Assembly: GCA_005879795.1 (NCBI GenBank)
Contig: VBKJ01000195.1
Location: forward strand, 1 to 38,595
DNA length: 38,595 nt
Reading direction: 5' to 3'
DNA from: Deltaproteobacteria bacterium
Lineage (GTDB): Bacteria; Desulfobacterota; Binatia; DP-6
A program made the translations under genes and the position numbers. Below are positions 3,818 through 6,112 of this stretch, piece after piece; the first letter of the stretch is position 1, and each line of letters begins with the position of its first letter. The notes under the pieces were generated by a model. It searched no databases. It saw nothing but the letters and a program-made list of their open reading frames with translations, and was not told where the DNA came from.

Positions 3818-4543
3818 GTGCCGAACCCGAAGCTCTACCTGCACGAGACGATCCACATCATCGGCACCGGGTCCGAGGCCTACAAGCGGCACACCGGCAC
3901 GCGCACGCCGAGCGGGCCGGCCGGGTTCCTGGTCGGGACCTGGCAGCAGTCGGGGTCGACCGGCGACTGGCCGCGCGTCGTGAACCTCTGGGAGATGGAG
4001 GGCTGGAAGGGCTGGGAGAAGATTCTCGAGCACCAGTACGCCGGCGCGGGGCAGCCGCCGGCGCTCGCCAGGTGGTGGGCGGAGGCGGCCAGGCTCCGCT
4101 CGGGCGGCTTCGACCGCATTCTCGAGCCGGCGCCGTACTGCCCGACGCGCGCGGAGCTCATCCGCCGGCGTGTCCGCGGCCGTGCCTTCATCCAGGAGAC
4201 CGCGACCGTCGTGCCCGGGGCGGCCGATGCGTACCTCGAGGCGGTCGAGACGCGTTGGCTCCCGGTGGCGGCCCGCCGCGGCCTCACGCTCGCGGGCGCC
4301 TGGCGCACGGCGATGCGCGACACCGAGGCCGTCCTCCTCTGGTGCCTGCCGACGCTCGGCCACTACGTCCGCCACCTGAGCGACTTTGCGAGCGCGGCCG
4401 AGACCCGCGCGTGGGCGACCGAAGCGCGCCGCTGGCGCACCGACTACCGCGAGACGCTCCTCGTCCCGAGCCCGTGGTGTGTGATGCACCCGGACTGGAA
4501 GGAGGAAGGCGCCGCGGGGCGCCGCACTACGTCCGGCGCGTGA
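3818..4543 (+). CDS. NIPSNAP-like hypothetical protein
   Basis: A 241-residue protein starting with GTG. The first half (LYLHETIHIIGTGSEAYKRH, then GTWQQSGSTGDWPRVVNLWE) and the second half (RAFIQETATVVPGAADAYLE, then LAGAWRTAMRDTEAVLLWCL) look like two related alpha/beta units, as in NIPSNAP or dimeric alpha-beta barrel proteins. No catalytic residue can be assigned. The first half is distinctly Trp-rich. The gene ends 17 nt inside the end of the convergent AhpD-like selenoprotein gene. Family assignment is by overall pattern only. Confidence 0.72.
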   Translation: MPNPKLYLHETIHIIGTGSEAYKRHTGTRTPSGPAGFLVGTWQQSGSTGDWPRVVNLWEMEGWKGWEKILEHQYAGAGQPPALARWWAEAARLRSGGFDRILEPAPYCPTRAELIRRRVRGRAFIQETATVVPGAADAYLEAVETRWLPVAARRGLTLAGAWRTAMRDTEAVLLWCLPTLGHYVRHLSDFASAAETRAWATEARRWRTDYRETLLVPSPWCVMHPDWKEEGAAGRRTTSGA

Positions 4544-5120
4544 GGGGGATGCCCGACTCGGCCGCGGCGCGCGTGCCCGCGTCGAGCTGGAGCCCGAGGC
4601 CGTCGGCGAGGCGGGTCAGGTAGTTGAAGATGCCGACCACGTGCGCCACCTCGAGGCACGCGCGGTCGTCGAAGCCGAGGTCGCGCAGCGGCTGCCAGTC
4701 CTCCTCCACCATGCGCGTGGGCGTGGCGCTCAGCTTCTCCGCGACCTCGCACAGTGCGCGCTCGCGGGACGTGAGGGTGGACGCGTCGCGCCATCGCTTG
4801 GCCTTGATGGCCTCGACCAGCTCCCGCTCTCCGCCCTCGACACGCAGAAACTCTGCGTGCGACTGCGTTCAGTAGTGGCAGTCCTGCGCGGCAGAGGTGA
4901 CCGCCGCGATCAGCTCGCGCTCGCGGCGCGAGAGGCTGCCCGGCGCGAACATGATCTGCCCGAAGAGCGCGCCGAAGAGCGGCGCGTACTGCTCGTGCGC
5001 CATCACGAGGCGCGCCATCGCGGGAAGGAAGCCAAAGTCGTACGGCGAGCCGGGCGGCATGAGGGCGCGGACCTCGGCCTCGCTCGGCAGCACGACCCAC
5101 GCGTCGGGGCTCCGAGGCAT
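4527..5120 (-). CDS. AhpD-like peroxidase-related selenoprotein with an in-frame UGA read as Sec
   Basis: Read through the single UGA at 4869-4871, this frame gives one 197-residue AhpD/carboxymuconolactone-decarboxylase-family protein. Residues 1-80 include LSRRERELIAAVTSAAQD, the redox motif is C81-H-Y-U84-T-Q-S-H88, and residues 85-197 run through SRERALCEVAEKL and LGFDDRACLEVAHVVGIFNY. The UGA sits exactly where the family has the second Cys of CxxCxxxH. The downstream part keeps perfect family similarity, so it is not decayed. The ATG at 5120 has AAGGGG upstream; extending to 5246 would add an unrelated tail. Expected role: thiol/selenol peroxidase-type redox activity. Without Sec incorporation the product would be an 83-residue fragment. 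No selA, selB, selC or selD lies in the window. Confidence 0.87.
4840..4871 (-). promoter_or_regulatory. Bacterial SECIS-like hairpin directly after the UGA codon
   Basis: In the minus-strand mRNA the UGA (4871-4869) is followed after 9 nt by CACGCAG, loop AGUUU, then CUGCGUG. This is a perfect 7-bp stem, closed by a further G-U pair at its base (4840/4860). The loop begins 16 nt after the UGA, within the known 16-37 nt range for bacterial SECIS, and has a G in its first two positions as SelB binding requires. The stem lies inside the coding sequence, as in bacteria generally. Confidence 0.8.
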
Positions 5121-5275
5121 GCCGGCCCCTTCTACGGCGCCGCCACGGCCATGGCAATGCAGGCCGCGCGGATGCGGGCCGTCGACAATGCGGGCCGCGA
5201 CAGATGCGGGCCGCGCGGATTGACGCCCCGAAGGCGCCTCGGCCATACTCGCGCGCCCACCAGGAGGGACGTCCC

Positions 5276-6112
5276 ATGGCCACCGCCAAGGTCGACTCGA
5301 TCGAGCTCTACTACGAGGAGCACGGGCGGGGCGGCCCGCTCCTCCTCATCATGGGCCTCGCCGCCGACTCGACGGCGTGGATGTTCCAGGTCCCCGACTT
5401 CGCGCGACGCTACCGGACGATCGCCTTCGACAACCGCGGCGTCGGGCGGAGCTCCAGGCCCCCCGGCCCCTACACGATCCACCAGATGGCGGACGACGCG
5501 GCCGGGCTGCTCGACGCGCTCGACCTCCAGCGCGCGCACGTGCTCGGCGTCTCGATGGGCGGCATGATCGCGCAGGAACTGGCGCTCCGGCAGCCCGAGC
5601 GCGTGCGCGGCCTGGTCCTCGCGTGCACCTACCCCGAGCCGGACGCCGAGGTGGAGCGGCAGCGCGAGTTCGGCATGCAGCGGTTCGGCGGGACGGTGAC
5701 CGCGAGCGGCGAGATGGAGATCAACCTGAACGCGCTCGACCCGCTCATGTTCTTCCAGCACCTCCTCCCGCGCGTCTTCAACCAATCCTTCATCGACAGG
5801 GAGCTCCCGAAGCTGATGCAGCTCTTCGCGGGCGCGCTCCAGTACGGCTTCAGCATGGAGGCAATCCTGGGCCAGGTGGCGGCGGTCATGGGGCACAAGG
5901 CGACGGATCGCCTGCACCTGATCCAGTCCCCGACGCTCGTCATCACCGGGGACGCCGACCTCCTCGTCTCGCCCGCCAACTCCGACATCCTGGCGCGCAG
6001 CATCCCGGGCGCGAAGCTCATGAAGATCCCCGGCGGCAGCCACGGCTTCAACCTGGAGACCCCCGAGATCTTCAACCGCGCGGTGCTCGACTTCCTGGCC
6101 GGCGTGCCGTGA
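5276..6112 (+). CDS. Alpha/beta-fold hydrolase
   Basis: A 278-residue alpha/beta hydrolase with the full triad: nucleophile Ser93 in GVSMGG, Asp in TGDADLLV and His in PGGSHGF. FDNRGVGRSS supplies the usual strand-4 region. AGGAGGG lies 7 nt before the chosen ATG. It resembles the 3-oxoadipate enol-lactonase / C-C hydrolase group, but the substrate cannot be fixed. The next gene starts with GTG overlapping the stop (GTGA), so the hydrolase and the SDR form an operon. The gene is divergent from the AhpD-like selenoprotein gene across a 155-nt gap that must hold both promoters. Confidence 0.9.
   Translation: MATAKVDSIELYYEEHGRGGPLLLIMGLAADSTAWMFQVPDFARRYRTIAFDNRGVGRSSRPPGPYTIHQMADDAAGLLDALDLQRAHVLGVSMGGMIAQELALRQPERVRGLVLACTYPEPDAEVERQREFGMQRFGGTVTASGEMEINLNALDPLMFFQHLLPRVFNQSFIDRELPKLMQLFAGALQYGFSMEAILGQVAAVMGHKATDRLHLIQSPTLVITGDADLLVSPANSDILARSIPGAKLMKIPGGSHGFNLETPEIFNRAVLDFLAGVP

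Follow-up and report, generated by a model that had tools for sequence, protein, structure and literature searches.

An AhpD-like gene with a CxxU redox motif in a probable Binatia genome, its in-frame UGA very probably read as selenocysteine

AhpD-like CxxU proteins (COG2128) first came to light in the Sargasso Sea survey (PMC1088965) and then in the GOS survey (PMC2398784), and the AhpD-like, TIGR01926, CxxU selenoprotein family has since been catalogued (PMC13188914), in keeping with an earlier note on the DNA studied here, which had described such variants as known from metagenomic surveys. The proton relay of these enzymes' relatives consists of Glu36, Cys48, Tyr50, Cys51 and His55 in PA0269 and of Glu118, Cys130, His132, Cys133 and His137 in M. 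tuberculosis AhpD (PMC3141380). The window that we analyzed, a stretch of 38,595 nucleotides from the draft genome of an uncultured, probable Binatia bacterium, contains a gene that adds another member to this already described selenoprotein family and involves no new mechanism. Compared by family and motif, it shares with the published TIGR01926 CxxU selenoproteins the same family model (128 bits), the CxxU motif and a SECIS directly past the UGA, but it belongs to a distinct CHYUTQSH ortholog group in the probable Binatia MAG and its relatives. An AhpD-like CxxU site is also shared with NF041238 (AhpD_rel_CFYUT, alkylhydroperoxidase-related (seleno)protein), whose C-terminal part matches the window protein at 70.8 bits; this is, however, well under the cut-off of 175, and the 357-position model is matched only from position 215. 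The relay Glu-x11-Cys-x-Tyr/His-Cys-x3-His is common to the window protein and to PA0269, M. tuberculosis AhpD and Deinococcus AhpD (2o4d, 1gu9 and 6k40), whereas the window protein would have Sec where these have the second Cys.

Table 1. Features of the AhpD-like locus, in positions of the window.
Feature	Position	Strand	Description and evidence
AhpD-like (TIGR01926) predicted selenoprotein gene	4527..5120	-	197 aa, ATG 5120-5118, TAG 4529-4527; profiles, structure match, orthologues
UGA codon, predicted Sec84, context CHYU (CHYUTQSH)	4869..4871	-	translation; UGA in 14/14 orthologues
Cys81 codon, first Cys of CxxU	4878..4880	-	translation, ortholog alignment
His88 codon of CxxUxxxH	4857..4859	-	translation, ortholog alignment
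Bacterial SECIS hairpin	4841..4859	-	8-bp stem CACGCAGA/TCTGCGTG, GTT loop, 17 nt UGA-to-loop
Divergent alpha/beta hydrolase	5204..6112	+	neighbour; 79% identical hydrolase in G005

Translation of the AhpD-like frame (Table 1) showed exactly one UGA, at residue 84, and 113 residues between it and the ordinary TAG stop. The earlier note had placed an intact AhpD/CMD-family read-through protein at this locus; its coordinates held, and the strand, which it did not give, was found to be the minus strand. A plus-strand reading of the same positions was rejected, since its translation yields nonsense. In profile searches, the read-through protein matched TIGR01926 (peroxid_rel; E 3e-37, 128 bits, curated cut-off 81.8 bits) and PF02627 (CMD; E 7e-12), both in agreement with the family that had been named. 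The solved AhpD structure 6k40 also matched (E 4e-24), as did 2oyo. All of these matches span the UGA, covering residues ~27 to 177, in line with the proposal that the sequence past the UGA stays family-like. The CxYC of 6k40 aligns with C81-x-Y-U84, and a Cys of 6k40 sits at the UGA position; the UGA is located, as had been claimed, exactly on the second Cys of CxxCxxxH (C81-H-Y-U84, then His88). An in-frame UGA where homologues have Cys is one of the marks of a bacterial selenoprotein.

A search of 58 related genomes found six orthologues outside the genome of the window, 65-71% identical and each with a single internal stop, which is TGA. A phylum-wide search of 395 genomes gave one further orthologue (L069), and a collection of named genomes yielded eight loci, of which one was L022 again, leaving seven more orthologues; the MAG labels of the loci from this collection are Candidatus Binatia, Deltaproteobacteria, Chloroflexi, Dehalococcoidia and SAR324. 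It is from these labels that the window is placed, as probable, in Binatia. All 14 orthologues (about 61-71% identical) have UGA at the same codon, so the UGA is not a matter of chance, and no Cys form of the CHYUTQSH ortholog group was found among them. In one orthologue, L077, the frame is additionally broken near codon 60. Within the class, more distantly related AhpD paralogues likewise carry CxxU (CFYUIESH, CRFUTVAH, CHYUIDAH and others; L025-L027, L031, L033-L038 and L040), some of them in long frames of about 380-420 aa (CHYUIDAH, CVYUEDAH), and two long related proteins, L030 and L032, have Cys instead (CDYCVDSH).

Downstream of the UGA, the sequence reads ACGCAGTCG-CACGCAGA-GTT-TCTGCGTG, and the hairpin begins 10 nt past the UGA. 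Published criteria for bacterial SECIS elements concern the loop, stem, spacing and energy (PMC13188914), and the hairpin agrees with all four: a G-U-U loop, a stem of 8 bp or more, 17 nt and -22 kcal/mol. The energy, calculated for the 42 bases downstream of the UGA, compares with a mean of -12.3 for shuffled sequences (z -3.8), and 0 of 200 shuffles were as low. SECIS geometry alone is weak evidence, because a loose bSECIS pattern follows 468 of the 632 TGAs in the window (24 with 8 bp or more). Codon usage within the hairpin is more telling. Codons 88-93 (HAEFLR) are CAC, GCA/GCG, GAG, TTT/TTC, CTG and CGT in all 14 genes compared, and the agreement in same-residue sequence pairs is 92%, versus a mean of 46% over the rest of the gene, making this the top six-codon stretch of the gene for synonymous-codon agreement. 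Three of the codons used are rare: in the other genes of the window, GCA makes up 2.9% of the Ala codons, TTT 4.9% of the Phe codons and CGT 5.0% of the Arg codons. This codon conservation is strong evidence that the hairpin is under nucleotide-level selection of its own. A covariation test on the orthologues found no compensatory changes on both sides of the stem, because the stem hardly varies, and this result neither supports nor contradicts the hairpin. A search of the gene region with Rfam gave no match.

The residues of the active site point in the same direction as the family assignment. E69, C81, Y83, U84 and H88 have the same spacing as the five-residue relay of PA0269, and all five were invariant in an alignment of nine orthologues. 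The proton relay Glu-x11-Cys-x-(His/Tyr)-Cys-x3-His is present with Sec as the predicted replacement of the second Cys, and, judging from the alignment, Sec84 would correspond to Cys51 in PA0269 and to Cys133 in M. tuberculosis AhpD. We take the second Cys of the AhpD pair (the Cys133 equivalent) to be the attacking Cys. Two more Cys residues outside CxxU, at positions 124 and 155, are invariant in 9/9 aligned orthologues.

The genome of the window (G000) encodes a tRNA-Sec on contig C162, with anticodon TCA and a score of 81.4 bits (cut-off 47). A profile search found no selA, selB or selD in its own bin, a 280-contig draft rated 99.56% complete. A selD candidate on C164 was rejected as thiL (248 bits), and selB candidates in the bin were all under the cut-off, the best being a 404-aa frame that was taken as EF-Tu. 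Thus, of the sel genes that the earlier note had named, selC (tRNA-Sec) is present, and selA, selB and selD are absent from the draft bin. Among the relatives, selB was found in 41 of 58, including four of the six others of the family and all six that have an orthologue. In eight relatives (G002, G003, G006, G008, G009, G012, G013 and G015) pcnB is located 1.5-3.1 kb from selB; in G003 both pcnB and an alcohol dehydrogenase gene (ADH) adjoin the sel genes, and G005, which is in the family of the window's genome, has the gene order ADH, selA, selB, selD. In the selD gene of G005 (L053:4656-5738), too, a UGA interrupts the frame close to the start (RARASGUAGK), so that standard calling begins it too late.

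The own bin also lacks pcnB (CCA tRNA nucleotidyltransferase), which was found in 18/18 other relatives searched, and an orthologue of the ADH that adjoins selA in relatives (best match 34%). On the simplest account, which is also our best reading, a single contig carrying pcnB, ADH, selA, selB and selD was left out of the bin, and the 99.56% completeness figure is no test of that. The lineage might instead have recently lost selA, selB and selD, in which case the tRNA-Sec and the selenoprotein genes would be relics ending at UGA. The absence of these three genes from the bin is consistent with such a loss, as is G001, a family member rated 100% complete in which selB is absent and pcnB present, suggesting that trait loss may occur in the family. 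We nevertheless prefer a missing contig, because pcnB, which lies near selB in relatives, is also absent from the bin, likewise the ADH orthologue; moreover, the AhpD-like gene with its rare-codon SECIS, the tRNA-Sec and another UGA gene have all stayed intact, and we consider recent loss very unlikely. This other gene (L080:1435-2172 on contig C117 of G000, minus strand), a second likely selenoprotein gene, encodes a DsbA-like lipoprotein with a UGA in a UxxC active site, DFQ-U-PFC, which is related to NF041057, a (seleno)lipoprotein family, at 81.6 bits, under the cut-off of 190; its presence supports an active Sec trait. A complete genome without sel genes, which the earlier note had held to speak against a selenoprotein, is not the present situation, as tRNA-Sec is present and the 280-contig draft is without pcnB too. 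There is little chance that the organism truly lacks selA, selB and selD while keeping tRNA-Sec and SECIS-bearing UGA genes; if it did, this would mean either that the trait is being lost or that decoding uses a divergent set of factors missed by standard models.

A TGA is one base from TGC or TGT and TIGR01926 includes Cys homologues, as would suit an ordinary AhpD gene of the Cys type that had suffered a nonsense mutation or been misread in sequencing, but this explanation is refuted by a UGA and SECIS common to 14/14 orthologues from independent assemblies, and its probability is negligible. A changed genetic code that reads UGA as another residue, e.g. Trp, for which no support was found, is extremely improbable, given a UGA at the redox Cys with a SECIS next to it, the presence of tRNA-Sec, and neighbouring genes that are full-length family members under table 11.

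These neighbours encode an amidohydrolase, a NIPSNAP-domain protein, the alpha/beta hydrolase and a short-chain dehydrogenase. The hydrolase of G005 (L062) neighbours a fragment of this AhpD-like gene that is cut off by the end of its contig, and this recurrence argues that the contig of the window belongs to the lineage. No operon partners are conserved across the ortholog loci, where the divergent hydrolase alone recurs, in G005, and there is no operon that indicates a specific substrate.

Altogether, we conclude, with a probability of about 0.95, that the product of the gene is an AhpD-like enzyme, related to thiol/selenol peroxidases, whose redox site is C81-x-x-Sec84, the UGA being decoded as selenocysteine. 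The hidden AhpD-like selenoprotein of the earlier note is upheld by three independent lines, the conserved UGA, the SECIS and the tRNA-Sec. The hairpin would recruit SelB and tRNA-Sec, which would decode the UGA at 4871-4869 as Sec. The selenol of Sec84, with Glu69, Tyr83 and His88 around it in the arrangement that other AhpD-like proteins have, may then attack a peroxide, a related oxidant or a disulphide, and Cys81 would resolve the oxidised Sec84.

Standard annotation breaks the AhpD-like gene at the UGA, and the selenoprotein reading corrects the gene model. The literature that we searched makes no mention of selenoproteins in the probable Binatia. The AhpD-like CxxU ortholog group occurs in probable Binatia as well as in some MAGs labelled Chloroflexi or SAR324, and the AhpD-like gene points to a Sec trait in probable Binatia.
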